Assembly: GCA_016720595.1 (NCBI GenBank)
Contig: JADKKI010000072.1
Span: forward strand, 372,001 to 436,000
Reading direction: 5' to 3'
DNA from: Myxococcales bacterium
GTDB lineage: Bacteria; Myxococcota_A; Polyangia; Haliangiales; Haliangiaceae
Length of the DNA: 64,000 nucleotides
Made by a program: the position numbers and the translations under genes
Shown here: piece after piece, positions 280 through 62,484 of the stretch
How positions within the stretch are numbered: position 1 is the first letter of the stretch
How the letters are laid out: each line of letters starts with the position of its first letter
Notes under the pieces: generated by a model
The model's database searches: none
Seen by the model: only the letters and a program-made list of their open reading frames with translations
Told to the model about the DNA's origin: nothing

Positions 280-366
280 TGCCAAATTCTTTGCCGAGGG
301 CCCGGGTGGGATCCTTAACATCGGTTGGACCCTGGCGCCAGCCACTAGGTTGCCCGTACCACGTGC

Positions 367-372
367 GATAAC
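367..372 (+). promoter_or_regulatory. putative -10 box of a leaderless transcript
   Basis: GATAAC matches TATAAT at 4 of 6 positions and ends 6 bases before the ATG at 379. No Shine-Dalgarno sequence is present. One of a family of similarly placed boxes in this window. Confidence 0.35.
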
Positions 373-378
373 CGCGAC

Positions 379-1131
379 ATGCGTACCGTGTTCGGCCTCG
401 TCCCTGGCCTGGGTGTCCTCGTGCTCGTCGGCTCGTGCTCCGGCGGGGGGCATCAGATCTCGATCGGCCCGGTGCCCGCACCGCGTACCACCGGCACGCT
501 CGCCGGCCCGCTCTGCGAGTACGACCACTGCACCTGCGCCGACGCCGAGCACGACCCGGGCGTCCCCGACAACGGCCGCAAGCGCTTCGAGTTCCGCCTC
601 AGCTCGGCGCAGCAGCTGTGGGTCTCGCTGCCGGGCGACACGGTCCTCTACAAGACGGTCGAGAAGCCGGAGGTCTGCTTCTACGTCGACCTCGGCGCCG
701 GGCAGCACCGGCTCTCGCTGCGTGCCTCGAACAAGGATGGCGTGTCGGCGCAGCTCGCCGTCCACGAGATCGGCACCAAGACCAAGAGCGCCTACGACAC
801 GTTCGCGTTCGAGTGCGGCAACCCGGGCGTGTGCTCGTTCGAGGAGCTCGATGCGCTCAAGGCCCGCTACGCCACCGTCAAGCGCGGCCTCCACGACCCG
901 TGCGGCTCGACCCGGATCAAGGACATCGGCTGGGACCACGGCAAGGCCCCGGACGGCACGCACCCGAGCGAGCTGGTGGTTCAGGCGACCCTCGATGTCT
1001 ACAAGTTCGCCCCGTGGAAGCCGCACGGCGACGGTGGCTGCGGCGAGGGCGGTGGGCGCAAGGATCCGGACGCCGGCGGCGGCTCGGGCGAGCCAGCACC
1101 CGAGGCGAGTGGTACTGATCCGGCCCCGTGA
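379..1131 (+). CDS. hypothetical lipoprotein
   Basis: The 250-residue product begins with a hydrophobic signal ending in a lipobox (LVGSC), so it should be lipid-anchored and exported. The mature part has eight or more cysteines (for example [10 protein letters not shown]) that may form disulfides, and it ends in a low-complexity Gly/Pro/Glu tail. I do not recognise a family. It lies upstream of mnmG, whose GTG start overlaps this stop codon (GTGA at 1128-1131), so the two genes are probably co-transcribed, although their functions look unrelated. Confidence 0.75.
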
Positions 1132-3080
1132 CGCCGTTTCTGTACCCAGATGACTACGACGTGATCGTCGTCGGTGCGGGCCACGCAGGTTGCGAGGCCT
1201 CGCTCGCGGCGGCGCGGCTCGGTGCGCGCGTGCTGGTGTTGACCGGCAGCCTCGAGATGGTCGCGCAGATGTCGTGCAACCCGGCGATCGGTGGCGTGGC
1301 GAAGGGCCACCTGGTCAAGGAGATCGACGCGCTCGGGGGCGAGATGGCGAGCGTGATCGACGCCACCGGGATCCAGTTCCGCCGGCTCAACGCCTCGAAG
1401 GGCCCGGCCGTGCGCTCGACCCGTGCGCAGGCCGACAAGCGCCGCTACCGCGACGAGATGCGGGGCCGGCTCGAGGTGCAAGCCAACCTCGCGCTCCGCC
1501 AGGGTGAGGTCGCGGAGCTCGGGATCATCGAGGAGGGGGCGCGCCATCGCGTGATGGGCGTGACCACCACGATGGGCGTGCGGTATCGCGGGCGCGCGGT
1601 GATCCTCACCACCGGCACGTTCCTGCGCGGGGCGATCTTCGTCGGCGAGGCGCGCGCGCAGGGTGGCCGCGCCGGCGAGGCGCCGTCGATCGGGCTCTCT
1701 CACTCGCTCGGCGCGCTGGGGTTTCCGCTCGCGCGCCTGAAGACGGGCACGCCGTGCCGGATCGATCGCAAGACCCTCGACGTGGCCGCGCTCGAGCTGC
1801 AGCATGGCGATGATCCTCCGCCGATGTTCCGGTGGAACCGCTCACCGCAGCGCCCACCGCTGCCGCAGCTGCCGTGCTGGATCACGTACACCAACGAGCG
1901 CACGCACGCGGTGATCCGCGAGGGCCTGCCGCGCTCGCCGCTGTACCGCAAGGACATCGAGGGCACCGGGCCCCGGTACTGCCCCAGCATCGAGGACAAG
2001 ATCGTCCGGTTCGCGGACAAGGACCGTCATCAGATCTATCTCGAGCCCGAGGGCATCGATTCGGCCGAGGTCTACCCGAACGGCATCTCCACCTCGCTGC
2101 CGTACGATGTGCAGCTCGCGTTCCTCCGCACGATCCCCGGCCTCGAGCGCGCCGAGATGACGCGCGCCGGGTACGCCGTGGAGTACGACTTCATCGACCC
2201 GCGCGAGGTGCTCCCCACGCTCGAGACCCGGCGGTGCGCGGGCCTCTATCACGCGGGACAGATCAACGGCACGAGTGGCTACGAGGAGGCCGCCGTCCAG
2301 GGCCTGCTCGCCGGGATCAACGCGGCGCTCGCCCTCGGCTTCGGGCCCGGCGATCGAGAGCCGCTGATCCTGCGTCGCGACCAGGCCTATGGCGGCGTGC
2401 TGATCGACGATCTGACCACGCAGGGCACCAAGGAGCCGTACCGGATGATGACCTCGCGCGCGGAGTTCCGGCTCATCCTGCGCGAGGACAACACCGTCGA
2501 TCGCCTGCTGCCGATCGGCCGCCGGCTCGGGCTCGTCGATGACGCGCGGTGGCGCGCCTACGAGGAATGGCAGATCGAGCTCGCCGCGGCGCACGACCGC
2601 GCCCAGCGCGCCTCGGTGCTCGGGAGCGAGGCCGTCAACGCGCTGCTCGCCACGTTCGGCTCGGCTCCGGTCGTCAACCGGCGGGCCACCCTCGCCGAGC
2701 TGCTGCGGCGGCCGGAGCTCGATTGGGCCGCGGTCGAGCAGATCGCCGCGGTCGGCGGCCTGACGGCGAGCGATGCGAGCCCGCAGGCGCTCGAGCGCCT
2801 CGAGGTGGAGCTGACCTATGCCGGGTACCTGCGGCGCCAGGAGGCCGAGGCGTCGCGGATGGTGCGCGCCGAGAACGTGCGGGTCCCCGAGGACATGGAG
2901 TTCCGCGGGATCCCGGGGCTGTCGAACGAGGTCATCGAGAAGCTCGAGACGATCAAGCCGCGATCGGTGGGGCAGGCGTCGAGGATCAGCGGGGTCACCC
3001 CGGCGGCCATCGCCATCTTGTTGACCCACATCGGGCTAGTCGAGCGCCGCAGGGCTGCGGTAGCTTCACGCCCGACATGA
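1128..3080 (+). CDS. mnmG: tRNA uridine-5-carboxymethylaminomethyl(34) synthesis enzyme MnmG
   Basis: MnmG (GidA) is the FAD-dependent partner of MnmE in modifying the wobble uridine of several tRNAs. The 650-residue product has the N-terminal dinucleotide-binding motif [12 protein letters not shown], the family signature [12 protein letters not shown], the central [21 protein letters not shown] stretch split across the FAD site, and a C-terminal helical domain that binds MnmE. Length fits the family (about 620-650). The GTG start overlaps the preceding stop by 4 bases and gives the correct N-terminus ([15 protein letters not shown]). The stop overlaps the next ATG (ATGA at 3077-3080). No mnmE or rsmG gene is adjacent here. 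Confidence 0.97.
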
Positions 3081-4699
3081 AGCTTCGTTCGCTCGCGATC
3101 ACGGTGGGTTCGGTCACGGTTCTCGGGGTTGGCATCGCACCGGCGCAGGCGGGTGGGCTCTACCTCCCGGGATCGGGAGCGGTGTCGACGTCGCGTGCAG
3201 GCGCCGCGGTCGCCTCGGCCGATGACGGCGAGGCGCTCTCGATCAACCCGGCCGGGCTCGCCAAGGCCAAGGGCACCACGATCACGCTCTCGATGGCGAT
3301 CATCGCGTACGCGATGGAGTTCTCGCGCCGCGGCACCTACGACCCGATCGACGCCGAGGCGCTGCCGTACGAGGGCCAGGCCTACCCGACCGTCCGCAAC
3401 GATCCGAGCCTCCCGCTCGGCATCGGCAAGTTCCAGCCGGTGCCGGTGTTCGCGGTGGTCTCCGACCTCGGCGGCAAGGTCAAGGGCCTGCACCTCGCGG
3501 CCGGGCTGTTCGCGCCCAACGCCTATCCGTTCCGCGACATGTGCACCGTCGGGTCGGGCGGCTGCCGGAAGTACGGCTTCAACGGCGACTTCAACGAGGC
3601 GCCGTCGCCCGTGCGCTACGACATCGTCAAGCAGGATGCCGCGGTGATCCTGCCGTCGATCGCGGCGAGCTACCGGATCATGGACAAGCTCGATGTCGGC
3701 GCGCGGTTCTCCGCCGGCTTCGCCACGCTCAAGTCGACCGTCACGATCTGGGGAAACCCTGCCAACACCGTCGAGTACGTCAAGGAGGACGCGCTGTTCT
3801 CCGTCGACGCGAAGGACAACTTCGTGCCGGGCTTCGGCCTCGGCGCCACGTTCCGGCCCACGCCGAACATCGAGGTGGCGGCGGCGTACAACTCCGAGCT
3901 GAGCCTCCTCGCCAAGGGCGATGCCACCAGCGAGACCGGCCCGAACGTCGGCCTCAACGGCACGCCGGTGACGATCGGCCCGAGCGACGACGTCCGCTGC
4001 GCGGCAGGCGGGACGCTCGAGAAGCAGAAGGTCTGCATCGAGCTCTCGCTGCCGATGACCGCCACGATCGGTGGCCGCTACAAGTTCCTCGCCGCCGATG
4101 GCACGCCGCGCGGCGACATCGAGCTCGATCTCGGCTGGGAGAACTGGAGCGCCACCCGCGCCACCGACTACCGGATCGTCGCCGATGCGCAGATCTACGT
4201 CGGCGGCAACCCGACGTTGGGCCTCAAGGACAACGTGGTCAGCCACGGCTTCAAGGACACGTACAACGCGCGCCTCGGCGGCAGCTACGACATCCCGATG
4301 AACGACAACACGCTCACCGTGCGCGGTGGCGTGGGCTACGACACGGCCGCGGCGAAGACGGGCTGGCTGCGCGCCGACATCGATGGCGCGGCGCGGACCA
4401 CGGTCACCGTCGGCGCCGGCTGGAAGGCCAAGCGCTGGAAGGTCGACATCGGTGGTGGCGCGATCCTCGAGGGTTCGCCGTCGAACGCCGGCACCTGCAA
4501 CCCCGTCGAGAAGGATGCGGCCAAGCTCGGGTGCAACGCGGATGGCGTCGAGCACGCGGTCGGCTCCGACGAGCGGCAGGGCCCCGATCCGATCAACCCG
4601 ATCGTGGTCCCCGAGAAGCAGATCGAGTCCCCGGTCAACAAGGGCAGCTTCTCGAGCCACTACGTCATGTTCATGCTCGGGTTCTCGACCTGGTTCTGA
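3077..4699 (+). CDS. FadL/OmpP1/TodX family outer membrane transporter (copy 1)
   Basis: FadL-type proteins are 14-stranded barrels that pass hydrophobic compounds such as fatty acids or aromatics across the outer membrane. The 540-residue product has a signal peptide ending AQA, then the characteristic N-terminus [21 protein letters not shown] and INPAGLA, which forms the luminal hatch. It ends in an aromatic (FSTWF), as outer membrane barrels do. The ATG overlaps the mnmG stop. A second copy follows after 35 bases and is similar along its length. The substrate cannot be told from sequence. Confidence 0.88.
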
Positions 4700-4721
4700 G
4701 CGGGTCCGGGCGGATCTGTTG

Positions 4722-4727
4722 TAGGTT
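4722..4727 (+). promoter_or_regulatory. putative -10 box of a leaderless transcript
   Basis: TAGGTT ends 7 bases before the ATG at 4735. It suggests that the second FadL gene has its own promoter besides read-through from the first. No Shine-Dalgarno sequence. Confidence 0.4.
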
Positions 4728-4734
4728 CCGCCGC

Positions 4735-6453: not shown

Positions 6454-6639
6454 ATGGCGTATCGCTGCGGTAACTGTGGCGGGTACTTCAGCCAGACCGA
6501 GGTCACCCACCGAAAGCCACCCCGGCACCCGTGGGCGCTGACGGTGAGCGGCCAGAAGGTCCTCACCGAGCTCGAGCAGATGGGCGGCGAGAGCTCGCAG
6601 TGCCCCGGCTGCGGGCAGCGGACGCTCGTGATCCGCTGA
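6454..6639 (+). CDS. small zinc-ribbon protein
   Basis: This 61-residue protein has two CxxC pairs (CGNCGGYF near residue 5 and CPGCGQRT near residue 50), the layout of a zinc ribbon. The linker is basic (THRKPPRHPW). Such proteins bind nucleic acid or act as zinc-dependent adaptors; the partner is unknown. The start codon is 6 bases after a -10-like box and no ribosome binding site is seen. The gene is 34 bases after the second FadL gene and 46 bases before another small gene that carries the same upstream motif, so the two may be co-regulated. Confidence 0.75.
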   Translation: MAYRCGNCGGYFSQTEVTHRKPPRHPWALTVSGQKVLTELEQMGGESSQCPGCGQRTLVIR

Positions 6640-6664: not shown

Positions 6665-6679
6665 GAAACGTGGCATAAC
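6665..6679 (+). promoter_or_regulatory. promoter-like motif shared with 6433-6447
   Basis: GAAACGTGGCATAAC, 13 of 15 positions identical to the motif in front of the zinc-ribbon gene, again ending exactly 6 bases before a start codon (6686). Confidence 0.4.
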
Positions 6680-7000: not shown

Positions 7001-7006
7001 TACCGT
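7001..7006 (+). promoter_or_regulatory. putative -10 box of a leaderless transcript
   Basis: TACCGT ends 6 bases before the ATG at 7013. No Shine-Dalgarno sequence precedes that start. Confidence 0.35.
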
Positions 7007-8173: not shown

Positions 8174-8203
8174 CTGACCGTTTCTTCGAAAATGCGCTAA
8201 GGT
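8174..8203 (+). promoter_or_regulatory. putative promoter of the moxR-like gene
   Basis: CTGACC (8174-8179, -35-like) and TAAGGT (8198-8203, -10-like) are 18 bases apart. The -10 box ends 7 bases before the ATG at 8211, so the transcript would start at or next to the start codon. Confidence 0.45.
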
Positions 8204-13469: not shown

Positions 13470-13475
13470 TATGGT
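13470..13475 (+). promoter_or_regulatory. putative -10 box upstream of biotin carboxylase
   Basis: TATGGT ends 8 bases before the ATG at 13484. A weak TTCCAG lies 18 bases further upstream (13446-13451). No Shine-Dalgarno sequence. Confidence 0.35.
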
Positions 13476-18354: not shown

Positions 18355-19848
18355 ATGGGTATGGAGATGCGCCAGGAACTGAAGCTGTCGCAGCAGCTGG
18401 TGATGACACCGCAGCTGCAACAGGCGATCCGACTCCTCCAGCTATCCCGGATGGAGCTGGCCGAGCTCGTGCACGACGAGATGCTCGAGAACCCCATCCT
18501 CGACGACGAGATGGATCTCGACAACGAGCGGACCCGCGAGCGGGACGAGATGGGCGGGGACGAGCAGGCCCTCCACCAGCTCGAGGGTGCCGGATCCACG
18601 GAGACCCCGATCGATGGCTCGGTCGTCGACGGCGTGGCCCAGACCGAGATCAAGGGCGATGCGGCGGCGGTCAACGAGATCGACTGGGAGAACTACCTCG
18701 ACAACTACTCGATGGGCCCGCCGATGCCCGCGTTCCGCGGCGATGGCGAGGAGATGCCCTCCCTCGAGCAGACGCTGACCAAGCCGGCGAGCCTGCACGA
18801 TCACCTCGCGTGGCAGCTGAAGATGACCAACCTGCCGCAGGAGCAGCTCGAGGTCGGGCTCGAGATCCTCGGCAACATCGACGCGGACGGCTACTTCAAG
18901 GAGCCCTCGATCGAGGAGCTCGCCGGTGACATGGGCGTCGATCCCGTGATCTGCGAGCTGGTGCTCGAGAAGATCCAGAGCTTCGATCCCACGGGCGTCG
19001 GGGCGCGCTCGCTCGCCGAGTGCATGCTGATCCAGTGCATCGCGGCAGGTCAGGACGATGACCTGTGCGTGAAGATGATCAAGAGCCACCTCGGCAACCT
19101 GGAGAAGAAGAACTACCAGGCGATCGCGCGTGACCTGAAGCAGCCGCTCGACGAGATCTACGAGGCGGCCAAGGTCATCATGGACTTCGACCCGCGCCCG
19201 GGTCGCCAGTACAACACCGACGATCCGCACTACGTCACGCCGGACGTCTACATCCACAAGGTCGGCGACAAGTACTTCGTCGTCCCGAACGACGATGGTC
19301 TGCCGAAGCTGAAGATCAGCGGCTTCTACAAGAACGCGATGGGCAACTCGGCCGCGTCCAAGGACTACGTCCAGGACAAGCTGCGCTCGGCGCAGTGGCT
19401 GATCCGCTCGATCCAGCAGCGCCAGCGCACGATCATCAAGGTCGCCGAGTCGATCCTGAAGTTCCAGCGCGAGTTCTTCGACAAGGGCATCGCCCACCTG
19501 AAGCCGCTGATCCTCCGCGACATCGCCGAGGACATCGGCATGCACGAGTCGACCGTGTCGCGCGTGACGACGAGCAAGTACGTCCACACGCCGCAGGGGA
19601 TCTACGAGCTCAAGTTCTTCTTCAACAGCGGCATCTCGCGCACCAACGGCGAGGACCTCGCGTCACAGGCCGTGAAGTCGAAGATCAAGGAGCTCGTGAC
19701 CGCCGAGGATCCGAAGCGTCCGCACTCGGATCAGAAGATCGTCGAGCTGCTCAAGAAGGGCGGCATCGACATCGCCCGCCGCACCGTCGCGAAGTATCGC
19801 GAGCAGCTGGGCATCCTCAGCTCGAGCAAGCGCAAGCAAGTGTTCTGA
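18355..19848 (+). CDS. rpoN: RNA polymerase sigma-54 factor RpoN
   Basis: Sigma-54 directs RNA polymerase to -24/-12 promoters that need AAA+ activators. The 497-residue product has the Gln/Leu-rich region I (LKLSQQLVMTPQLQQAIRLL), an acidic region II, the core-binding region, the helix-turn-helix (HESTVSRVTTSKY) and the C-terminal RpoN box (ARRTVAKYRE). Length fits. It heads the classic rpoN-hpf-ptsN neighbourhood, here interrupted by one gene on the other strand. No lptB precedes it. Confidence 0.97.
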   Translation: MGMEMRQELKLSQQLVMTPQLQQAIRLLQLSRMELAELVHDEMLENPILDDEMDLDNERTRERDEMGGDEQALHQLEGAGSTETPIDGSVVDGVAQTEIKGDAAAVNEIDWENYLDNYSMGPPMPAFRGDGEEMPSLEQTLTKPASLHDHLAWQLKMTNLPQEQLEVGLEILGNIDADGYFKEPSIEELAGDMGVDPVICELVLEKIQSFDPTGVGARSLAECMLIQCIAAGQDDDLCVKMIKSHLGNLEKKNYQAIARDLKQPLDEIYEAAKVIMDFDPRPGRQYNTDDPHYVTPDVYIHKVGDKYFVVPNDDGLPKLKISGFYKNAMGNSAASKDYVQDKLRSAQWLIRSIQQRQRTIIKVAESILKFQREFFDKGIAHLKPLILRDIAEDIGMHESTVSRVTTSKYVHTPQGIYELKFFFNSGISRTNGEDLASQAVKSKIKELVTAEDPKRPHSDQKIVELLKKGGIDIARRTVAKYREQLGILSSSKRKQVF

Positions 19849-19880
19849 GCGCTCGCGACGAGCTGCAGTGATCCGGCTCG

Positions 19881-20951
19881 TCAGGGAGGCGTGATCGGCG
19901 CGCTGCACAGCCGCAACGGGATGTGCTTCTCGACCTTCGAGATCGCAGCGTCGAACATCGCGATCCCGGCGGAGAACTCGAGCAGCCGACCGGCCGGGGT
20001 CCGGGTGAGCGGCGAACCGGGGCCCGTCATGTCGGTGGGGCCGCAGTAGGGGCAGGACGCGGGCGGGAACTGCGGCGTGGTCGCGATCGCGCTGGTCACC
20101 TTGCCCGTCGCGACATCGACGATGGCGACGCCGTTGCCGCCACGGCCGGCGATCGCCCAGCGGTCTCCGTCGAGAGCGTACGGATCGCTGAACTCGACAT
20201 TGACGGCATTGATGGCATCGACGGTGCCGAGCAGCTTGCCGTCCTTCGAGAACAGCCACGCCTTGGCCTTGAGGTCGTTGCAGACAGAAGCGGTGACGTA
20301 GACCGAGTTGCCGAGGAACCGCGCCGTCCCGGGGCAGCTGTACTCGCCGTCCCCGACGGTGACCTTCGCGACCTGCTTGCCCGTGGCCAGATCGAAGATC
20401 ACCACCGGCTTCTTGGGGCCCTCGGTCAACGGGACCGTGGCGATTGCGCGGGTGCCATCCGCGGAGACATCGACGTGGTAGCCCTCACGGGGCTCGTCCA
20501 CGAGGTTCGGCAGGGGCTTCAGCGCCAGCCGGCGGCAGGCCTTCGGAGGCGCGCACACCTGCACGAGCTTGCTGGTGTCGGTGACGGTGAACCGCGCCGG
20601 TGGTGGGGCCGGTGGGGCGGGCGGGCTCGTCAGATCGGCGTGCGCGCCGGTCGCGAGGTCGATGCTCACGCACCGGGTCTCGTCCTTGCGTCCTCCACCC
20701 ACCACGAGGCGCCGGAGGCAGACCACGGCACGATGATCGTCGGCGGTGAAGGTCTCGACCGCGCCACCGAAATCCGGAGGGATGCAGTCCTTGGTGATCG
20801 GAGCGGCGGGGGCGGCCGGGGGGGCCAAGGGGGGAATGGCATCGCTCGGGTGGGATGTGGGCGTGGGTGCGGGGATAGGCAGCGGCGGCTGCGTCTGCTT
20901 GGTCTCACCGCCGCAGCCGGCCACCATCACGAACGCGATCCACCTGCGCAT
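19881..20951 (-). CDS. lipoprotein with beta-propeller-like repeats
   Basis: The 356-residue product has a lipoprotein signal (VMVAGCGG), a Pro-rich spacer, and then repeats of the form VVIFDLATGKQVAKV and VAIVDVATGKVTSAI, typical of YVTN/WD40-like propeller blades. Cysteines occur in a CPYCG pair near residue 310. It should sit in the envelope. It is inserted antiparallel between rpoN and hpf, splitting the usual operon. TACGAA (20958-20963) 6 bases upstream of the ATG is a possible -10 box. Confidence 0.65.
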   Translation of the reverse strand: MRRWIAFVMVAGCGGETKQTQPPLPIPAPTPTSHPSDAIPPLAPPAAPAAPITKDCIPPDFGGAVETFTADDHRAVVCLRRLVVGGGRKDETRCVSIDLATGAHADLTSPPAPPAPPPARFTVTDTSKLVQVCAPPKACRRLALKPLPNLVDEPREGYHVDVSADGTRAIATVPLTEGPKKPVVIFDLATGKQVAKVTVGDGEYSCPGTARFLGNSVYVTASVCNDLKAKAWLFSKDGKLLGTVDAINAVNVEFSDPYALDGDRWAIAGRGGNGVAIVDVATGKVTSAIATTPQFPPASCPYCGPTDMTGPGSPLTRTPAGRLLEFSAGIAMFDAAISKVEKHIPLRLCSAPITPP

Positions 20952-21001
20952 CCCAAATTCGTATCACGCGGGTGTACACTGCGCGCGAGCCGCAGAATTT
21001 C

Positions 21002-21026
21002 CCGTCGACGATCGGATGATCGACGG
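21002..21026. promoter_or_regulatory. inverted repeat in the hpf upstream region
   Basis: CCGTCGA and TCGACGG are perfect 7-base arms separated by 11 bases, about 50 bases before the hpf start and between two divergent genes. It could be an operator or a small hairpin in the leader. Confidence 0.35.
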
Positions 21027-21075
21027 TCGAGATCAGGCGTAGGATCGATCCCGAACCACTCAGGGAGACCACTCG

Positions 21076-21690
21076 ATGCAATTCGCGGTGACGTTCCGTC
21101 ACATGGAACCGACCGATGCCTTGAAGTCCTACGCAAAAGAGCGAATGGAGCGCGTTCGCAAGTACCTGCCGGATCCCATCTCCTGTCACGTCGTCCTCAG
21201 TACCGAACGTCACAATCACCGCATCGACGTCACGTTCCAGCTGCACAACGGTCTCGCGGTCGCGGGGCACGAGACCACCGAGAACATGTACTCGTCGATC
21301 GACCTCTGCATCGCGAAGATCGAGCGCCAGGTCCGCAAGTACAAGGGCAAGCTGGAGGGCATGAAGGCCCGCCCGCACCACGTGCAGGCGCTCCCCTGGT
21401 CGCACTCGATCGTCTCGGAGGCCTTCAACGGGGTCGGAGGCGAGGGCAACGGGCACTCCGTCCCGACCTCCGCCCACGATGCGAACTCCCCGACCCCGGA
21501 CTTCCAGGTCATGAAGACCGAGAAGTTCCACGCCCAGCCGATGTCGGTGGCCGACGCCATCGTCCAGATGAATCTTCTACACGAGGCGTTCCTCGTGTTC
21601 CGCCACGACAATGGCCAGGTGGCCGTGGTCTACAAGCGCGAGGACGGCGGGTACGGGTTGATCGAGACGGGCGCCACAGCGACCGCCTGA
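21076..21690 (+). CDS. hpf: ribosome hibernation promoting factor, long form
   Basis: HPF binds the 30S subunit and makes inactive 100S dimers in resting cells. The 204-residue product has the N-terminal S30AE domain (residues 1-105, FRHMEPTDALKSYAKERMERV) and, after a linker of about 40 residues, the C-terminal dimerisation domain (FHAQPMSVADAIVQMNLLHEAFLVF split at about residue 155). The long form dimerises ribosomes without RMF. GGGAG lies 8-12 bases before the ATG. Gene order with ptsN and hprK is the conserved proteobacterial rpoN cluster. Confidence 0.93.
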   Translation: MQFAVTFRHMEPTDALKSYAKERMERVRKYLPDPISCHVVLSTERHNHRIDVTFQLHNGLAVAGHETTENMYSSIDLCIAKIERQVRKYKGKLEGMKARPHHVQALPWSHSIVSEAFNGVGGEGNGHSVPTSAHDANSPTPDFQVMKTEKFHAQPMSVADAIVQMNLLHEAFLVFRHDNGQVAVVYKREDGGYGLIETGATATA

Positions 21691-21737
21691 CCGCCCGAAA
21701 CTCGTACGAAAGATGGTAGCTTGAGCCGCGTCCACCG

Positions 21738-22199
21738 ATGAAGATCGTCGACCTCATCAAGCGCGACATGGTCGTTCCCGCGCTGCAGGCGACCGACAAG
21801 CGCGGCATCCTCGAAGAGCTCGCCGCGTACATGGCGGGCAAGCAGCCGCGCATCGATCGCGCGACCTTGGCCCGCGTGCTGATCGAGCGCGAGCAGCTCG
21901 CCTCCACCGCGATCGGTGAGGGCGTGGCGATCCCGCACGGCAAGCTCGGCACGGTCAACGAGATCGTGGCGTGCCTCGGTCGTGGCTGGGACGGCATCGA
22001 GTTCGATTCGATGGACGGGCAGCCGACGTATCTGTTCTTTGTCCTGGTGGCCCCGGAGTCTTCGACCGGTGCTCACCTGAAAGCGCTCGCGCGGATCAGC
22101 CGCGTGTTCAAGGACCCGGAGTTTCGGCGCAGGCTGCTCGCCGCACCCGACGCCGAGGCGATGTACACCGTCGTAGCGGAAGAGGACGCCAAGTACTGA
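21738..22199 (+). CDS. ptsN: PTS-Ntr EIIA protein (PtsN)
   Basis: PtsN accepts phosphate from HPr in the regulatory phosphotransferase branch and controls transporters, kinases and stress genes rather than carrying sugars. The 153-residue product has the EIIA fold with the phosphorylated histidine in IGEGVAIPHGK (His67). It ends directly before hprK (stop 22197-22199, next ATG 22200), so translation is coupled. TAGCTT at 21718-21723 is a weak promoter candidate; otherwise it is read from hpf. Confidence 0.93.
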   Translation: MKIVDLIKRDMVVPALQATDKRGILEELAAYMAGKQPRIDRATLARVLIEREQLASTAIGEGVAIPHGKLGTVNEIVACLGRGWDGIEFDSMDGQPTYLFFVLVAPESSTGAHLKALARISRVFKDPEFRRRLLAAPDAEAMYTVVAEEDAKY

Positions 22200-23180
<981 letters not shown>

Positions 23181-23183
23181 CCG

Positions 23184-24020
23184 ATGCAGATCGTGATCGT
23201 CACGGGGCTGTCGGGCGCGGGGAAGAGCACCGCGCTGCGCGCGCTCGAGGACATCGAGTTCTACTGCGTCGACAACCTCCCGGTGCCGCTGCTCCCGCAG
23301 CTCGTGGAGCACCTGGCGCACGAGGGCGATCGCGACAAGCTCGCCCTCGCGATCGATTCACGCCAGCGGCGCAACCTCGCGGCGTGGCAGACCGCGCTCG
23401 CGAAGCTCCGCGGCGCGGGCCACCGCCTCGAGGTGATGTTCCTCGACGCGAGTGACGAGGTGCTGCTGCGGCGGTTCAGCGAGACCCGCCGTCGCCATCC
23501 GCTCTCCGGCGACGACCTGCTCGATGGCGTGCGCCGAGACCGCGAGCTGATGACCGAGCTCCGTCAGGGCTCCGCCGTCGTCGATACCTCGAACCTCAAC
23601 ATGCACCAGCTCAAAGCGATCATCCAGGATCGCTACGGCGGCACCGGCAAGCTCGCCGTGACGCTGGTGTCGTTCGGGTTCAAGCACGGCCTCCCGCTCG
23701 AGTTCAACCTGGTGTTCGACGTGCGGTTCCTCGCGAACCCGTACTTCGAGCCCACGCTGACCCACCTGGATGGTCGCGATCCGGAGGTCGCCAGGTTCGT
23801 CCTCGGCGCCGACGGGCTCGAGCTCACGCGGCAGGTCGAGGGTCTGCTGCGGTTCACGCTTCCTCACTTCCAGAAGGAGGGGAAGCTCTACGTCACGATC
23901 TGCGTCGGCTGTACGGGTGGTCGACATCGTTCGGTGGCGATCGTGGAGGAGCTGCGCCGGCGGCTCGGTGGGGAATGGGACATCCTGGTCAGGCATCGTG
24001 ATGTCGAGAGGGGTTCGTGA
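23184..24020 (+). CDS. rapZ: RNase adapter protein RapZ
   Basis: RapZ-type proteins bind nucleotides and, in enterobacteria, guide small RNAs that control glucosamine-6-phosphate synthase to RNase E. The 278-residue product has the Walker A motif GLSGAGKS, the VDNLPVPLLP segment, and the family C-terminal block (SFGFKHGLP, DVRFLANPYF, CVGCTGGRHRSV). It begins 3 bases after hprK and its stop overlaps the ptsH start. The partner in this phylum is unknown. Confidence 0.95.
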   Translation: MQIVIVTGLSGAGKSTALRALEDIEFYCVDNLPVPLLPQLVEHLAHEGDRDKLALAIDSRQRRNLAAWQTALAKLRGAGHRLEVMFLDASDEVLLRRFSETRRRHPLSGDDLLDGVRRDRELMTELRQGSAVVDTSNLNMHQLKAIIQDRYGGTGKLAVTLVSFGFKHGLPLEFNLVFDVRFLANPYFEPTLTHLDGRDPEVARFVLGADGLELTRQVEGLLRFTLPHFQKEGKLYVTICVGCTGGRHRSVAIVEELRRRLGGEWDILVRHRDVERGS

Positions 24021-24310
24021 TGGGAGCGCAGGGAGACGATCGCGCGGAGAAGACGTTGCTCATCCAGAACGAGCTGGGGTTGCACGCACGTGCGGCCACC
24101 AAGCTGGTGCAGACAGCGTCGAAGTTCCCGTGCGAGGTCACGGTGACCAAGGACGGTCACGAGGTCAACGGCAAGAGCATCATGGGCGTCCTCATGCTCG
24201 TCGCGAGCAAGGGCACCACGGTCACGGTGAAGGCGAAAGGGGAGAAGTCCGCCGAGGCGGTCGCGGCGATCTGTGCGTTGATCGACGACAAGTTCGGCGA
24301 GGGCAAGTGA
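24020..24310 (+). CDS. ptsH: phosphocarrier protein HPr
   Basis: HPr passes phosphate from EI to EIIA proteins. The 96-residue product has the active histidine in LGLHARAA (His22) and the HprK target serine in NGKSIMGVL (Ser53). An N-terminal extension of about 10 residues precedes the normal start. The ATG at 24020 overlaps the rapZ stop by one base; a GTG one codon upstream is also possible. Keeping both phosphorylation sites links it to both EI and HprK in the same operon. Confidence 0.93.
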   Translation: MGAQGDDRAEKTLLIQNELGLHARAATKLVQTASKFPCEVTVTKDGHEVNGKSIMGVLMLVASKGTTVTVKAKGEKSAEAVAAICALIDDKFGEGK

Positions 24311-24326
24311 TCCGGAGGAGTGTCCG

Positions 24327-26099
24327 ATGACGGGCGATCGGCCGGAGCTGCGGCGGCAGGGCCTGGGCGTCTCGGCGGGCATCGCGTTCGGGCGCGCCTA
24401 CCTGATCGGTCGCGACACGCTGAAGGCACCGCGCCACCACATCGAGGCCGACGACGTCGATACCGAGATCGCGCGCCTGTACAAGGCGATCTCCGCCTCC
24501 GACAAGCAGCTCGCGAAGATCAAGGAGAAGCTCGCGAGCGAGAACGAGAGCGACTACCACATCATCACCGCCCACCAGATGATGCTCCACGACGAGCACC
24601 TGGTCGGCGCCGCGGTCGGGTACATCCGCGAGGAGCTGATCAACGCCGAGTGGGGCCTCCGCAAGGCCGTCGACGACATCGCCGGCGTGTTCGATCAGAT
24701 CGAGGATGCGTACCTCCGCGAGCGCAAGACCGACGTCGAGTTCGTGTTCGAGCGCGCGCTCCGCAACCTCCTCGGCCGTGACACCGGGCCGCTGTCACCG
24801 CCGCCCGATGCGATCGTGGTCGCGTACGACCTGTCGCCGGCCGACACGGCGCAGCTGCACAAGGCCGCGGTGTCGGGCCTGGTCACCGACGCCGGCGGCA
24901 AGACCTCGCACACCGCCATCATCGCGCGCGCTCACGAGATCCCCGCCGTCGTCGGGCTCGAGAACATCACCGAGATGATCGAGACCGATGACCTCGTGCT
25001 GATCGATGGCGCGGCGGGCATCGTGATCGTCAACCCCACGGCCACCACGGTCGCCGAGTTCCGCGAGGAGCAGCGGCGCCAGGTCGCGGCGAACTCGGTG
25101 CTGCACTCGATGCGCGACCTGCCGGGGCGCACGCGAGACGACGTCGACATTCGCCTGTACTGCAACATCGATGGCCCGGACGAGCTCGACGACGCGCTCG
25201 ACTACGGCGCGATGGGCGTGGGCCTGTTCCGCACCGAGTACCTGTTCATGGGGCAGGACAAGCTCCCCGACGAGGAGCTGCACTACACGACCGCGGTCAA
25301 GTGCCTCGATCGGCTCGGCGGGCTGCCCGCCACGATCCGCACGTTCGACCTCGGCGCCGACAAGCTCGCCGGGTTCCTCGAGGACGCACGGCTCGAAGAG
25401 GCGAACCCGGCGCTCGGGCTGCGCTCGATCCGCCTGTGCCTGTCGGAGATCGGGCGTGACCTGTTCAAGGCCCAGCTCCGCGGCCTGCTCCGTGCCTCGG
25501 CGCACGGCCCCTTGAAGATCATGTTCCCGATGATCTCCGGGGTCTCGGAGCTGCGCGCCGCGAAGGCCGTGGTCGCGGAGGTCAAGGCCGAGCTCACCGC
25601 CGAGAGCATCGCGTTCGACGAGCACGTCAAGCTCGGCATCATGATCGAGATGCCGTCCGCGGCGCTGACCGCGGATCTGCTCGCGAAGGAATCGGACTTC
25701 TTCTCGATCGGCACCAACGATCTGATCCAGTACACGATGGCCGTGGATCGCGTGAACGAGTACGTCTCGTACCTCTACGAGCCCCTGCATCCCTCGCTCC
25801 TGCGCCTGATCGAGACGGTGGCGAAGGCGGCCAAGGCGGAGGGGATCCCGGTCACGGTGTGCGGCGAGATGGCGGGCGAGCCGATGATCGCGCCGATCCT
25901 GATCGGCCTCGGGATCCGCGAGTTCTCGATGAGCGCGGTCTCGGTGCCCGAGGTCAAGGCCACGATCCGCGCGATGACGGTGAGCGAGGCCGAGCTCCTG
26001 ATCAGCCGCGTGCGCTCGCTGGCGACGGCCGCGGAGGTCCGCGCGATGGTCTCCGAGTACGTGTTCAGCCTCGCGGGGCAGCGGAAGGGCCGCGCATGA
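24327..26099 (+). CDS. ptsI: phosphoenolpyruvate-protein phosphotransferase (enzyme I)
   Basis: Enzyme I takes phosphate from PEP and gives it to HPr. The 590-residue product has the HPr-binding N-terminal domain, the active histidine in GGKTSHTAIIAR (about residue 195), and the PEP-binding barrel with GLFRTEYLFMG and FFSIGTNDLIQYTMA. It has no GAF domain, so it is PtsI-like in architecture rather than PtsP. GGAGGAG lies 9 bases before the ATG. Its stop overlaps the next gene (ATGA). No sugar-specific EIIBC is present in the window. Confidence 0.94.
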   Translation: MTGDRPELRRQGLGVSAGIAFGRAYLIGRDTLKAPRHHIEADDVDTEIARLYKAISASDKQLAKIKEKLASENESDYHIITAHQMMLHDEHLVGAAVGYIREELINAEWGLRKAVDDIAGVFDQIEDAYLRERKTDVEFVFERALRNLLGRDTGPLSPPPDAIVVAYDLSPADTAQLHKAAVSGLVTDAGGKTSHTAIIARAHEIPAVVGLENITEMIETDDLVLIDGAAGIVIVNPTATTVAEFREEQRRQVAANSVLHSMRDLPGRTRDDVDIRLYCNIDGPDELDDALDYGAMGVGLFRTEYLFMGQDKLPDEELHYTTAVKCLDRLGGLPATIRTFDLGADKLAGFLEDARLEEANPALGLRSIRLCLSEIGRDLFKAQLRGLLRASAHGPLKIMFPMISGVSELRAAKAVVAEVKAELTAESIAFDEHVKLGIMIEMPSAALTADLLAKESDFFSIGTNDLIQYTMAVDRVNEYVSYLYEPLHPSLLRLIETVAKAAKAEGIPVTVCGEMAGEPMIAPILIGLGIREFSMSAVSVPEVKATIRAMTVSEAELLISRVRSLATAAEVRAMVSEYVFSLAGQRKGRA

Positions 26100-30438: not shown

Positions 30439-31557
30439 TCACCCGAGGTCGACGACTCCAACCTCGGCGAGGCGCGAGAAGGCGAGCAGCGCCTCGGCCT
30501 CGCGCACGCTCGCGGACTTGATCAGAGATAGCAGGTCCCAGCGGCCGTCGACGCGCTCCGCGAGCTCGATCTCCGCGTCGGTCAGCTGGAGCTCGGGTGG
30601 CGCGAACGTGACGTCCATCAGCCTGCGCGGCACGCGGTGGCGCGACAGCAGCTGCTTGGCGACCTCGGCCACACGGGCGCGCTCGATCTGCGAGAACGTC
30701 TTGCGCACCTCGGAGTCGCTCGGATCCTGGTGCAGGGCCTGGGTGGCCATCGCGAGGGCCCCAGCGCGATCGCCCGCGCGCAGCCGTCCGCGTGCACCGG
30801 CGGCGAGCTCGACCGCCGAGTTGGTGCGCTCGCGGTGACGCCGATCCACGGTCAGGCGCTCGGACTCGACCATCTTGACGAGGGCATCGTAGGTGCCGAA
30901 CCGCTCGCCGGCGAAGGCGGCGGCGATGTCGGCGGCGGTGTGGCGATCGCCGGCGAGGGCCCAGATCCGCTGGTGATCGAGCACCGAGCCATCCTCCCCG
31001 GCGGGCGGGGTGGCGCTCGGCGGGACATAGAACGTGACGTCGTCCGCGCCGAGGATCCCCATGATCTCGTTCATCCGGGCGGAGCGGCGCCGGGCGACGG
31101 TGAGGCAGATGTCGATCGCGAGCTGGGCCACGACGCCGGTCGCGGGTGGTTGCACCTTGGGAATAACGTCGAAGGTCCCATCGGTCCACGTCACGATGTC
31201 CGTCACCGCTTCGCGGATCTTGTTCGCCAGGATGTCCACCAGGTCGATCTCCGTGATCAGGCCCGACATCAGCAGCACCTTGCCGAGGGGCACCCCGGTC
31301 TCGGCGCGGGTCTCGAGCGCATCGGCGAGCGCACGCTCGGCCACCAGGCCGCTGCGGACCAGGATCACCCCGAGCTGTTCGTCGCGGCGGTTCGAGCTGG
31401 CCCACACGATCTGGCCGTGCTCGACGACGAGGCTGCGCGCGAGGCCCCGCCGATCGAACGTGATCGGGCCCGAGAGCTTGCGCCGGGCGACCCATTCGAG
31501 GACGTCTTCGGCGGGCATGGTGCTGAGCGCGCCGCGCACCGACATGCCTTTGAGCAT
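30439..31557 (-). CDS. DUF4388 (PATAN-like) domain protein
   Basis: The 372-residue product has an N-terminal DUF4388 domain (about 1-130; SVRGALSTMPAEDVLEWV, LVVEHGQIVWASS, then the LGVILVRSGLV and LLMSGLI helices), a domain common in delta-proteobacterial and myxobacterial signalling proteins with receivers. The rest is helical with TPR-like character (AGALAMATQALHQDP). ATG 31557 is chosen, giving MLKGMSVRG; ATG 31545 is equally possible. It diverges from the thioredoxin gene with only 27 bases between starts, so promoters must overlap. Confidence 0.7.
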   Translation of the reverse strand: MLKGMSVRGALSTMPAEDVLEWVARRKLSGPITFDRRGLARSLVVEHGQIVWASSNRRDEQLGVILVRSGLVAERALADALETRAETGVPLGKVLLMSGLITEIDLVDILANKIREAVTDIVTWTDGTFDVIPKVQPPATGVVAQLAIDICLTVARRRSARMNEIMGILGADDVTFYVPPSATPPAGEDGSVLDHQRIWALAGDRHTAADIAAAFAGERFGTYDALVKMVESERLTVDRRHRERTNSAVELAAGARGRLRAGDRAGALAMATQALHQDPSDSEVRKTFSQIERARVAEVAKQLLSRHRVPRRLMDVTFAPPELQLTDAEIELAERVDGRWDLLSLIKSASVREAEALLAFSRLAEVGVVDLG

Positions 31558-31577
31558 AGCGGAGAATCGGCTAAGGT
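31550..31577 (+). promoter_or_regulatory. putative promoter of the TlpA-like gene
   Basis: TTGAGC (31550-31555) and TAAGGT (31572-31577) are 16 bases apart; the -10 box ends 7 bases before the ATG at 31585. The -35 box lies at the 5' end of the divergent DUF4388 gene. Confidence 0.45.
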
Positions 31578-32330: not shown

Positions 32331-32336
32331 TAGGCT
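32331..32336 (+). promoter_or_regulatory. putative -10 box of a leaderless transcript
   Basis: TAGGCT lies in the 20-base gap behind the thioredoxin gene and ends 6 bases before the ATG at 32343. Confidence 0.35.
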
Positions 32337-35472: not shown

Positions 35473-35523
35473 GGAAAATGATCGTAGCCAGCGTCAGACC
35501 ACCAGCGCAAACTCGCTGCCCGA

Positions 35524-37863: not shown

Positions 37864-38640
37864 TCAGACTATAGTCCCAAAGGTCGCCGTCACCGGAGCA
37901 TGATCGCTCGCGTCCTGGCCCTTCCGGGCGTTGCGGTCGATCGTGCACGCCGTGCACCGCGCGGTCATCGATGCGCTGGTCAGGATGTGGTCGATCCGCA
38001 GGCCCTGGTTCTTGAAGAACGAGACCCCGCGGTAGTCCCACCACGACCACACGCCGCCCGCGGGCGTCAGCACGCGGAACACGTCGTCGAGCCCCCACGC
38101 GCGGACCTCCGCGAGCGCGGCGCGCTCGGGCTGGCTGCAGTGGATCTGATCCTTCCAGGTGGCCGGCGCCCACACGTCCTGATCGTCGGCGGTGACGTTC
38201 ATGTCGCCGCACACGACCAGTGCCCGATCGGGAGCGCTGGTGCGCGTGAGGAACGCTCGCAGCCGGCCGAACCACGCGAGCTTGTACGGATAGCGATCGG
38301 AGTCGAGGGCCTGGCCGTTCGGCACGTACAGGTTGACCACCCGTACACCGTGCGTGGTCGCGGCGATCACCCGCGCCTCGTCGTCGGGCACGTCATCGCC
38401 AAAGCCGCGCGTCACGTCCTCGAGCGGCTGCGTCGACAGGATCGCGACGCCGTTGTAGCTGGCCTGCCCGAACATCGCGACCTGGTACCCGGCCTTGGTC
38501 ACCGCCTCGAGGGGGAACTTCGCGTCCTCGGTCTTGGTCTCCTGCAGGCACACCACGTCGGGGCGCTCTGCTTCGAGCCAGGCGATCAGGCGAGCCGTCC
38601 GCGCGCGGATCGAGTTGATGTTCCAGGTGACGAGCTTCAT
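37864..38640 (-). CDS. xth: exodeoxyribonuclease III
   Basis: An AP endonuclease and 3'-5' exonuclease for base excision repair. The 258-residue protein has the full EEP-fold motif set: LVTWNINSIRAR, CLQETKTED (metal-binding Glu), YVPNG, GDMNV (Asp/Asn), RIDHILTS and SDHAPV. The ATG at 38640 gives the standard N-terminus; GGGAG lies 3-7 bases upstream. It is followed by the BNR protein gene after 2 bases. Confidence 0.95.
   Translation of the reverse strand: MKLVTWNINSIRARTARLIAWLEAERPDVVCLQETKTEDAKFPLEAVTKAGYQVAMFGQASYNGVAILSTQPLEDVTRGFGDDVPDDEARVIAATTHGVRVVNLYVPNGQALDSDRYPYKLAWFGRLRAFLTRTSAPDRALVVCGDMNVTADDQDVWAPATWKDQIHCSQPERAALAEVRAWGLDDVFRVLTPAGGVWSWWDYRGVSFFKNQGLRIDHILTSASMTARCTACTIDRNARKGQDASDHAPVTATFGTIV
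37868..37873 (-). promoter_or_regulatory. putative -10 box for the BNR protein gene
   Basis: TATAGT on the minus strand, 5 of 6 matches to the consensus, ending 6 bases before the GTG at 37861. It lies inside the last codons of xth, so the downstream gene may be expressed on its own. Confidence 0.4.
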
Positions 38641-38777
38641 CTCCCGAGAACCTACATCACCGTACCGGGCGAGAAGCGTGCCAGGGCGCAACTCGCGTAG
38701 GCGGCTCTTGTCTCACGGGAATGAGGGGTGTGGGGCAGGGGTTAGACCAACAACGGCCGTCGCGCGTGGAGAACATC

Positions 38778-39660: not shown

Positions 39661-39666
39661 TATAGT
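39661..39666 (+). promoter_or_regulatory. putative -10 box of a leaderless transcript
   Basis: TATAGT, 5 of 6 matches to TATAAT, ends exactly 6 bases before the GTG at 39673. The clearest leaderless candidate in the window; no good -35 box is seen. Confidence 0.5.
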
Positions 39667-47136: not shown

Positions 47137-47163
47137 CCCCCGGGCGCGCTATCGTGCCCGCAC

Positions 47164-52581: not shown

Positions 52582-52587
52582 TATCCT
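52582..52587 (+). promoter_or_regulatory. putative -10 box of a leaderless transcript
   Basis: TATCCT ends 7 bases before the ATG at 52595, within the 51-base gap to the divergent kbl gene. Confidence 0.4.
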
Positions 52588-54165: not shown

Positions 54166-56871
54166 GTGAAGTCCAGCACCCGGCTCGGCGTCGTCGTCCT
54201 CTCGCTCGCGGTCGTGGCCGTCGTGGTCACCCGTCTCCTCGGCCTGTGGGGCGGCGGGACCACGACGCCGCCCGTGGCGAAGGCACCACCCACCGCGCCT
54301 GGCCCGACCACCACCGCACCTCCGCCGGCCGCACCTGCGAGCTCGGGCGGGGCGATGCAGCGGCGCCCCGAGCTGGCCTACGACGATGACCCTGCCGGCA
54401 CGATCCGGCTCGAGGGCCAGGTGATCGATGACAAGGACCAGCCGGTCGCCGGGGCCCGGGTCGCGATCGACGCGAACCCGACCAAGACCGTGGTGACCGA
54501 GGCCGACGGCGGCTTCACGTTCGAGGGGCTGATCGCGCGCGACTACCGCGTCGAGGCGACCGCGGCGGATGGCTACGCCGGGCCCGCGCGCGTGCGGCTG
54601 ACCGCGACGCCGGAGCCGGTGACGTTGCGCCTGCACCAGGCCGGGCAGGTCGAGGTGGTGGTCACCGGGCCCGATGGTGCGGCGATCAAGGACGCGGCGG
54701 TCGAGCTGCGATCGACCCTGCTGTGGACGGCCACGACGGGCGCCGATGGTGTGGCCACGCTGCGCGGCGTGGGCGCGGTGTGGGCGCCGCTCGCGGTCCG
54801 CGCGACGGGCTTCGCACCGGCGGCGATGATGCTCTCGACCACCGGAGATCCGGCGGCAGCGACGCGGATCGCGATCACGCTCGGCAAGGGCGCGGCGATC
54901 GCCGGCAAGGTGCTCGACGAGGCAGGCAAGCCGGTGGCCGGCGCGCGCGTGGTCGCGACGGCAATGTCGGAGCCGTTCCCGGTCGTCGATCCGCGGCGCG
55001 ACGGCGTGGAATCTTCCGCCGATGGCTCGTTCTCGATCCCCGCCCTCGCGGCCGGTACCTGGCGCCTCACCGCGACGCACGCGGATCGCGCGCCCGGCAT
55101 GAGCACGCCGATCACGATCGACGGGATCCACGAGCGCACCGGCGTCCAGCTCGTGCTCGAAGCCGGCGCGGTGCTGCGCGGCGTGGTCAAGGATCCCAAG
55201 GGCGCGCCGGTGGCCTCGGCCGACGTGCGGATCGTGGTGCGCGGGCACACGTTCTGGCGCGCGCGGCGCGAGGCGTTCACCGGCGCCGATGGCACGTTCA
55301 CGATCCGCGGGCTGCCGCGTCGCGCCGTCGACGTCGTGGCCTCGCACGAGCGTGGCGCCTCGCCGATCGTCGCGGCGGATCTCGCGGCCAAGCTCGAGCT
55401 CGAGGTCACGCTCACGCTCGACGTCGTCGGTGCGCTCGAGGGCACGGTGGTCGACAGCACCGGGCAGCCGATCGGCGATGCACAGGTGATCGCGGAGCCG
55501 GTGTGGAGCGGTGGCACGGCCGATCGCGAGGCGTGGAGCGTGCGCGGCGAGCACCAGACCGTGACCGATCAGGCGGGCGCGTTCCGGTTCGCGGGGCTGC
55601 CCGAGGCCTCGTACCGCGTTCGCGCGGCGCGCCCGGGTGCCTCCGAGGCCGCGCTCGAGCTCGCGCAGACGCATGTCGCCAAGCCCGGTGATCCGAAGCT
55701 GCGGATCGTCCTTGGCGCCGATGGCCGCGTCACCGGCAAGGTCGTGTTCGCCGATGGCAAGGTCCCGGCCTCGTTCACGGTGGCACTCGGTGCGAGCCCG
55801 CCCACCCCGTTCGCGACCAAGGACGGCGCGTTCAGCATCCCCGCGGTCGCCGGCACCCACGCGCTCGTCGTCGATGGTCGCGGCTTCCTCGCCTCGAAGG
55901 CGAAGGACGTGGTGATCGTCGAGGGCAAGGCCACCGATGCGGGCACGATCACCGTGCTCCCGGGGCGCTCGATCTCCGGCCGCGTACTCGACGCATCGGG
56001 GGTGCCGGTCGCCAAGGCGAAGGTCGCGGCGGGGATGCTGCTCACCGGCGGTGGCGCGGAGCTCTACATCCCCGACGAGAGCATCGGCGCGAAGGACACC
56101 GAGACCGACGCCGAGGGCAGGTTCACGCTCGAGGGGTTCCCGCCCGCAGCGGTGACCGTGATCGCCGGCAAGGCGGAGGTCGGGCGGAGCTCCAGTGTCC
56201 GGATCCCCGCGGGCCCCGACAGCGCGCGGCTCGAGCTCGTGCTGCAGGCCACGGCGGGCCTCGCCGGCACCGTCACGCGCGAGGGCAAGCCGCTCGGTGA
56301 CACGGTGGTGATCGCGAACCCGATCGGCGCCTCGAGCGCCTCGTTCTTCGTGACCACCGGGGCCGACGGGACGTTCGCTCTCGACGCGCTCGCTCCCGGC
56401 CCGTACCTCGTCTATCCGATGATCGGCGGTGGCGGGAATCGGCCGAAGGACATGTACATCCGCAAGGTCGAGGTGGTGATCGGAACCCGCACCAACGTGA
56501 CGATCGATGCCACGCCGGGGCCGGTGACGCTGAGCCTCACCGTGAAGACCACGGCGGGTGCCAAGGTGCCGATGGCCCAGGTGTTCGCGGTCCAGGCCAC
56601 CGTCACGCCGCACACGGTGAGCGAGCTGCGCGACATCGACCAGCTGCCGGTGTTCGGCGACACGCCGCTGCCGGTGTACATCCGCGGCGCGATGGACGGA
56701 GCCGCGGAGATCCCGGGCATGCGGCCGGGCAAGCACACGATCTGCATCGTGCCGATGACCGGACCGCCGCCCGACGACCTCGATACGCTGCCGCTGACCT
56801 GCGTGCCGGCCACGCTCGGCTCCGCGCCCAAGGCGAAGCTCGACGTCGTGGTGCCGGCGCCGAAGCCCTAG
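54166..56871 (+). CDS. membrane-anchored protein with tandem carboxypeptidase-regulatory-like domains
   Basis: The 901-residue product has an N-terminal signal or anchor helix (about 7-25), a Pro/Thr-rich spacer and then about eight Ig-like repeats of the carboxypeptidase-regulatory type, each with a phrase like [18 protein letters not shown]...GGFTFEGL (for example [51 protein letters not shown]). Such domains are common in large adhesins and secreted proteins of Myxococcota. GTG start. It follows the RND-like lipoprotein gene by 62 bases. Confidence 0.8.
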
Positions 56872-60027: not shown

Positions 60028-60033
60028 GTCGGT

Positions 60034-61077: not shown

Positions 61078-61145
61078 GGCGGCTGTCATAACAGTGCGGG
61101 ATTGGTCCAGCCAATCCTGCACGGTGTCACATCTGAATGACAGCG

Positions 61146-62404: not shown

Positions 62405-62411
62405 GCGAGCG

Positions 62412-62417
62412 AACCTA
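62412..62417 (-). promoter_or_regulatory. putative -10 box of a leaderless transcript
   Basis: TAGGTT on the minus strand, ending 7 bases before the ATG at 62404. It would drive the lipoprotein/diiron pair. Confidence 0.4.
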
Positions 62418-62471
62418 ACACGGCGGCCACGTTCGCGACGCGGAGCTCGCGGCGTCCACGAGTTTGAATGT

Positions 62472-62477
62472 TACCGT
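62472..62477 (+). promoter_or_regulatory. putative -10 box of a leaderless transcript
   Basis: TACCGT ends 7 bases before the ATG at 62485 (same hexamer as at 7001). The 80-base gap to the divergent lipoprotein gene holds both promoters. Confidence 0.4.
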
Positions 62478-62484
62478 CGAGGGA

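Follow-up and report, generated by a model that had tools for sequence, protein, structure and literature searches.

Leaderless genes, read from messenger RNAs (mRNAs) that start at the start codon itself, have been described in several bacterial groups. In Actinobacteria, such as Mycobacterium tuberculosis and Streptomyces, they carry a TANNNT -10 element (PMC3898074), and about 20% of actinobacterial genes are leaderless according to Zheng et al. 2011 (PMC3160421), who describe the TAnnnT signal for high-GC groups. For Deinococcus-Thermus, Zhong et al. 2025 (PMC12340547) report that a -10 element a few bp before the open reading frame (ORF) drives leaderless mRNA, at about 30% of ORFs on average, and present a cross-phylum survey on complete genomes (Fig S7). 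GeneMarkS-2 predicts that 21.6% of bacterial species use leaderless transcription (Lomsadze 2018, via PMC9581028). Among the delta-proteobacteria, Zheng et al. list 8 of 33 genomes as having leaderless genes, at 15.8% (5.7, 20.6), the species being unnamed in the main text; our guess is that these eight are largely myxobacteria. The 64,000-nt stretch of a Myxococcales genome analyzed here ("the window": contig JADKKI010000072.1, positions 372,001 to 436,000; GC ~69%) carries a TANNNT box 6-8 nt before many start codons, the same signal as that of the TA-led delta-proteobacterial genes of PMC3160421.

An earlier note on this DNA had pointed to leaderless genes in Actinobacteria and Deinococcus, where the kind is indeed established and has been followed by bacteria-wide surveys, and had known of no systematic description in the present lineage. 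At the level of the old class this is too strong, since delta-proteobacteria figure in Zheng et al. 2011. No paper on leaderless genes in myxobacteria was found in a search that covered titles, the beginnings of abstracts and some passages, with subscription papers and supplements outside the scope. The delta-proteobacterial entry in the passages of PMC10783764 is a row in a table of anti-Shine-Dalgarno sequences.

The boxes are very probably -10 elements of sigma-70-type promoters that would give leaderless mRNAs. RNA polymerase with a sigma-70-type factor would initiate at the start codon's first base, and the ribosome would take up the 5'-terminal AUG or GUG without a Shine-Dalgarno (SD) sequence. 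Recognition of a 5'-terminal AUG or GUG is most likely by the 70S ribosome or a preloaded initiation complex. That the boxes act as promoters, where exactly the 5' end lies, which sigma factor is used and how the ribosome binds are all inferred from the DNA letters. Other genes are SD-led, so the organism runs a mixed system. It shares with Actinobacteria a TANNNT just ahead of the start codon in some genes and SD-led starts in others; it differs in belonging to a Gram-negative lineage, the phylum Myxococcota, and in being known from sequence alone, whereas the -10-adjacent promoters of Deinococcus-Thermus were reporter-tested (PMC12340547). Leaderless transcription is supported by a spacing peak at 6-8 nt, a lock between box and reading frame, and the conservation of boxes in orthologues; an SD sequence seldom accompanies the box.

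The RpoN protein encoded in the window is 96% identical to that of JACCRC010000112.1, a Deltaproteobacteria metagenome-assembled genome (MAG), and 80-95% identical to those of several Kofleriaceae/Myxococcales MAGs, matches from which we infer the lineage label Kofleriaceae (Myxococcota) used here. Genome-wide tests were run on the relatives G001 (L001, RpoN 96%), G003 (L006, 91%), G004 (L011, 80%) and G005 (L018, 77%), with Paraliomyxa (G008) and Anaeromyxobacter oryzae (G009) as distant comparison genomes. The Kofleriaceae-type sets consist of the window and stretches of G001, G003, G004 and G005; set G001a is biased (its contigs were chosen for hits), while G001b is an unbiased sample of this closest relative. 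The 59 window genes come from a home-made codon-based caller that uses coding potential only. Transcription units were guessed from gene spacing, with a gap of 40 nt or less defining an operon-internal gene, and the candidate starts of first genes are the in-frame starts from -60 to +30 around the called start. The spacing k is the number of nt between TANNNT and start codon, 6-8 being the main range.

Alignment of upstream regions in the relatives, as the earlier note had proposed, yields a sharp TANNNT peak 6-8 nt before in-frame first-gene starts. In the pooled Kofleriaceae-type sets without G001a, 135 of 1248 starts carry the box, against 16.8 at other spacings (Poisson p 4e-73) and 11.6 in 200 dinucleotide shuffles (sd 3.5, maximum 22). 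With G001a included (1616 starts), the counts for k=0 to 10 are 9, 5, 4, 5, 2, 13, 84, 49, 42, 22 and 17, followed by 4-12 per spacing beyond 10 nt. At the 1345 out-of-frame start codons of the same regions, k=6, 7 and 8 return 3, 1 and 2, so that 175 boxes in frame face 6 out of frame. This frame lock, by which the start codon belongs to the signal, is the strongest single argument for leaderless transcription. An Escherichia coli K-12 control returns 1, 0 and 0 at k=6, 7 and 8 in a small sample of 54 starts, and the peak of Anaeromyxobacter is weaker (17 of 353 starts vs 4.0).

Within the window, TANNNT is rare, with 71 occurrences on both strands against a shuffle mean of 172, and 15 of the 71 sit 6-8 nt ahead of in-frame starts of called genes. 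At first genes, 8 of 75 candidate starts have it at 6-8 nt, compared with 1.1 at other spacings (Poisson p 1.8e-5) and with a mean of 0.9 and a maximum of 6 in 200 dinucleotide shuffles. When the range is set to -90..+60, 10 of 31 first genes are boxed, while control spacings give 1, 4 and 2 and out-of-frame starts 1 and 0. The earlier note had listed 19 hexamers as one TAnnnT-type class at first genes lacking an SD sequence. All 19 hexamers and gaps agree with the sequence letter for letter, and 12 fit TANNNT; three further TANNNT boxes at 7-8 nt, at 31545(-), 35472(-) and 38640(-), had been overlooked. The 15 boxes, followed by one listed hexamer of another type, are:

4722..4727, plus strand: TAGGTT, 7 nt before ATG 4735; FadL/OMPP1-type outer membrane protein.
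7001..7006, plus strand: TACCGT, 6 nt before ATG 7013; outer-membrane beta-barrel protein.
8198..8203, plus strand: TAAGGT, 7 nt before ATG 8211; AAA ATPase, MoxR-like by our reading.
13470..13475, plus strand: TATGGT, 8 nt before ATG 13484; biotin carboxylase-type protein.
31553..31558, minus strand: TATGCT, 7 nt before ATG 31545; DUF4388 protein; absent from the earlier list.
31572..31577, plus strand: TAAGGT, 7 nt before ATG 31585; thioredoxin-like/AhpC-TSA protein; back-to-back with the 31545(-) box.
32331..32336, plus strand: TAGGCT, 6 nt before ATG 32343; response regulator; upstream gene 20 nt ahead.
35481..35486, minus strand: TACGAT, 8 nt before GTG 35472; transglutaminase-fold protein; absent from the earlier list.
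37868..37873, minus strand: TATAGT, 6 nt before GTG 37861; upstream gene 2 nt ahead.
38649..38654, minus strand: TAGGTT, 8 nt before ATG 38640; endonuclease/exonuclease/phosphatase-family protein; absent from the earlier list.
39661..39666, plus strand: TATAGT, 6 nt before GTG 39673; weak match to membrane protein YfhO.
47150..47155, plus strand: TATCGT, 8 nt before ATG 47164; cupredoxin-like protein; upstream gene 27 nt ahead.
52582..52587, plus strand: TATCCT, 7 nt before ATG 52595; 502-aa protein with a partial AcrB-type match.
62412..62417, minus strand: TAGGTT, 7 nt before ATG 62404.
62472..62477, plus strand: TACCGT, 7 nt before ATG 62485.
6674..6679, plus strand: CATAAC (not TANNNT), 6 nt before ATG 6686 of a small protein gene; GTGn in front, as in an extended -10.

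The absence of SD sequences holds, with no SD-like match at any of the 15 boxed window starts. Not all listed genes are first genes: a same-strand neighbor lies within 40 nt at 4735, 6454, 15511, 32343, 37861 and 47164, and 66-71 nt away at 7013, 47949 and 61077. The seven listed hexamers that do not fit TANNNT are GATAAC (379), CATAGC (6454), CATAAC (6686), CATGAT (15511), TACGAA (20951), TAGCTC (47949) and TATGAC (61077), that at 6454 preceding a 61-codon ORF not accepted by the gene caller. As a class they are without support: the patterns TANNNC, TGn-CAT, TGn-GAT and others, tried genome-wide, return no clear spacing peak, and a second hexamer class was rejected on this ground. Local support exists at 6686 only, where 5 of 9 related loci (L246-L255) have G(T/A)GnCATA ahead of the start and 3 have CATGA, two of them identical, L251 having neither motif; this box may be a variant -10 extended by TGn, or it may belong to another sigma factor.

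Six boxed starts (4735, 8211, 13484, 31545, 31585 and 32343) were traced in related loci, 15 of which were dropped for a late alignment start, for having no start codon within reach, or as duplicate sequences. The 54 matched starts have TANNNT at 6-10 nt in 40 cases and at 16-20 nt, taken as control, in 3. After removal of two matches of 32% identity at 32343, which are other response regulators, 39 of the 52 orthologous starts of at least 45% identity keep the box, against 2 of 52 at the control spacing. At unboxed sites (8 starts of 7 genes, one gene having two alternative starts; 11 loci dropped), TANNNT occurs in 2 of 114 orthologous starts and at the control spacing in 4 of 114. The box is kept at 6-10 nt in 7 of 8 starts at 4735 (6 of 14 loci dropped), 7 of 8 at 8211 (2 of 10 dropped) and 10 of 11 at 13484 (2 of 13 dropped). 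The flanks of these three sites (-45..-21) are 42%, 46% and 40% identical, respectively, which is the level of random sequence (41%), and the box therefore stands out as kept. It is also kept at 31545(-) in 7 of 8 starts and at 31585 in 6 of 6 (5 of 11 loci dropped), but their flanks are conserved too (70% and 81% identical), so these two sites are less informative. For 7013 and 52595, no orthologue was found among the related loci compared.

Upstream of the 13484 orthologues (biotin carboxylase-type), the sequence ATGCAACG is present in six relatives (L001, L002, L003, L006, L007 and L009) and is possibly a -35 element or a regulator site. The 31545(-)/31585(+) pair is divergent, with start codons 39 bp apart and the two back-to-back -10-like boxes in a short intergenic stretch.

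Ranking of the hexamers found 6-8 nt before starts places TACCGT, TAGGCT, TACGCT, TAGGAT and the like on top, followed by SD pieces and shifted overlaps. The hexamer-aligned logo exhibits G at -2 (0.59) and a faint T at -23 (0.29), with no strong -35. T at -3 reaches only 0.23 compared with a background of 0.16, and the G at -2 hints weakly at an extended -10 (TGn). The start codons of 192 hits are 114 ATG, 69 GTG and 9 TTG. Counted by gene in the window, an SD-like match occurs at some candidate start in 1 of 15 boxed and 19 of 44 unboxed genes (Fisher p 0.011), and in the lone boxed gene it lies at another candidate start than the boxed one. The idea that the box simply takes the place of SD at first genes, and there alone, was rejected: SD is lower at internal genes too (103 of 304 in the Kofleriaceae-type sets vs 62 of 106 in Anaeromyxobacter), and a trade-off is therefore not shown gene by gene. 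The rpoN gene (18355) has kept SD instead, with GGAG shortly before its start in 20 of 22 loci. The window had also suggested that leaderless genes mainly encode secreted proteins and lipoproteins, which is not supported: a hydrophobic N-terminus is encoded by 79 of 180 boxed and 34 of 97 SD-led first genes (p 0.16, G001a included). Against all other first genes the difference reaches p 0.0003, the class with neither signal probably including miscalled starts.

Sorted by position in the transcription unit (without G001a), 99 of 326 divergent genes are boxed (control spacings 8, 14 and 10; out of frame 7 and 3), as are 47 of 249 genes distant from a same-strand neighbor (control spacings 4, 6 and 4; out of frame 2 and 1). 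Together with the operon-internal genes considered below, 187 of 879 genes are boxed, background not subtracted, and first genes with G001a included reach 190 of 743. Between one fifth and one quarter of the genes heading transcription units in the family seem to be read from an mRNA that would start at the start codon. Divergent pairs boxed on both sides number 24 of 220 (start-to-start gaps 20-199 bp; Kofleriaceae-type sets, G001a included), compared with 21.3 expected under independence, and a preference for divergent leaderless pairs was accordingly rejected.

The spread of the signal was assessed by counting TANNNT-N6-ATG against TANNNT-N12-ATG over whole genomes, a measure for which gene calls are unnecessary and spacing 12 is phase-matched; its ratio drops with high background and is therefore not a share of genes. 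Spacing 3 was dropped as a control because positions adjacent to the start are poor in TANNNT, which made it too low and flattered the ratio. Phase-matched spacings were also preferred to a reversed pattern, judged a poor control because its own counts vary with spacing. In the family of G001, spacing 6 exceeds spacing 12 in 30 of 30 genomes, 29 of them at p<1e-6, with a median ratio of 3.1 and a range of 1.22-6.27. Over 112 genomes drawn from the phylum, one of them G001, the ratio spans 0.91 to 8.35 with a median of 1.38; it is above 2 in 29 genomes, at most 1.1 in 19 and below 1 in only 4. With so few values below 1, either the ratio is still biased slightly upward or weak use is widespread, and the weakest genomes of the family (1.22-1.34) are near that possible bias. 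Among divergent first genes, 49 of 96 have SD and 11 of 96 TANNNT in Anaeromyxobacter, compared with 76 of 326 and 99 of 326 in the Kofleriaceae-type sets. The chances appear evenly balanced that leaderless initiation is a major mode across the whole Kofleriaceae, at an Actinobacteria-like level, and has been repeatedly gained, lost or re-weighted against SD within the phylum.

Several results weigh against leaderless transcription from the boxes. When TANNNT-N6-ATG-N8-GC is compared with the reversed pattern, G001 (68 vs 57) and G003 (69 vs 86) exhibit no excess, and little or none is found in G002 (28 vs 31), G006 (90 vs 93), G007 (99 vs 82), G008 (36 vs 47), G009 (13 vs 14) and G010 (28 vs 40); alone among these ten genomes, G004 (62 vs 16) and G005 (90 vs 22) exhibit a clear one. 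The contrast in SD use is weak at the level of starts, with matches at 7 of 147 TANNNT starts vs 149 of 1558 other candidates, because many of the latter are not real starts. The 32343 box is present at 6-10 nt in only 2 of 11 orthologues of at least 45% identity (L234 and L235), at 5 nt in L236, and is not kept in more distant relatives. The comparison of first with operon-internal genes, also proposed in the earlier note, goes in the predicted direction when pooled but is incomplete, as 41 of 304 operon-internal genes are boxed (control spacings 3, 6 and 4; out of frame 3 and 0; without G001a), and the difference is absent in G001b (13 of 92 first vs 12 of 62 internal). The TA of the box is the upstream stop codon in only 5 of the 41 internal hits; therefore many internal genes have their own promoter, or the operon rule is crude. 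Internal boxes would accordingly be either promoters located where the preceding gene ends or signs that operons are more fragmented than spacing suggests. Further points on this side are that spacings of 9-10 nt are enriched as well, which would imply leaders of 1-4 nt, and that the gene caller picked another in-frame start at 9 of 18 listed sites (6454 aside), 8 of them downstream, for instance 13553 for 13484 and 39724 for 39673.

The last two points would fit real -10 elements of leadered mRNAs, the true start lying downstream or transcription beginning elsewhere with the box merely near. Such a promoter needs no in-frame start at a fixed distance, whereas the boxes number 175 at 1616 in-frame and 6 at 1345 out-of-frame start codons, and the start codon beside the box recurs in orthologues; this explanation is improbable. 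Still less credit goes to the box being an aid to translation initiation or a by-product of base composition or codon phase. Zheng et al. (PMC3160421) classify genes by TA-like and SD-like signals in parallel, so that the two functions are inseparable by sequence alone; yet the hexamers are fixed at T1, A2 and T6 with GC-rich free middles, resembling high-GC -10 signals and not AT-rich tracts, the box is commoner at divergent than at internal starts in the pooled sets, and neither dinucleotide shuffles nor the phase-matched spacing 12 reproduce the peak. That the list was a chance collection of TA-rich hexamers at free spacing has next to no probability. It would suit the 7 of 19 hexamers that are not TANNNT and lack genome-wide support, and for most of these seven the chance explanation stands. 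For the TANNNT cases as a group it is refuted: the 12 listed and 3 overlooked boxes are far above expectation, and the peak recurs in related genomes outside the data of the earlier note.

With the boxes read as leaderless promoters, the kind itself is known, and what is new is its occurrence across a family and the contrast within the phylum, the latter being the more interesting part. Work on this habit has centered on Actinobacteria and Deinococcus, and the present case extends it to a Gram-negative lineage. The habit is spread unevenly inside a single phylum, and SD use is lower where boxes are frequent; this gives an opening to study what drives the uptake or loss of leaderless genes. If the repeated changes within the phylum are true, Myxococcota would be a natural test bed for bacterial switching between leaderless and SD modes. 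Gene finders that expect SD can misplace starts in such genomes, and the protein N-termini and signal peptides of the family may therefore often be wrong.

Elsewhere in the window, ARAGORN reports a tRNA-Ala (ggc) at 55175-55271 (plus strand), inside the gene of a 901-aa protein (54166-56871) on the same strand, which is probably a false call. Positions 18355-26099 comprise, in one run, rpoN, a ribosome hibernation factor (S30AE), EIIA, HPr kinase, rapZ, HPr and the PEP-utilising enzyme I, with an opposite-strand gene (19881-20930) following rpoN within this run.

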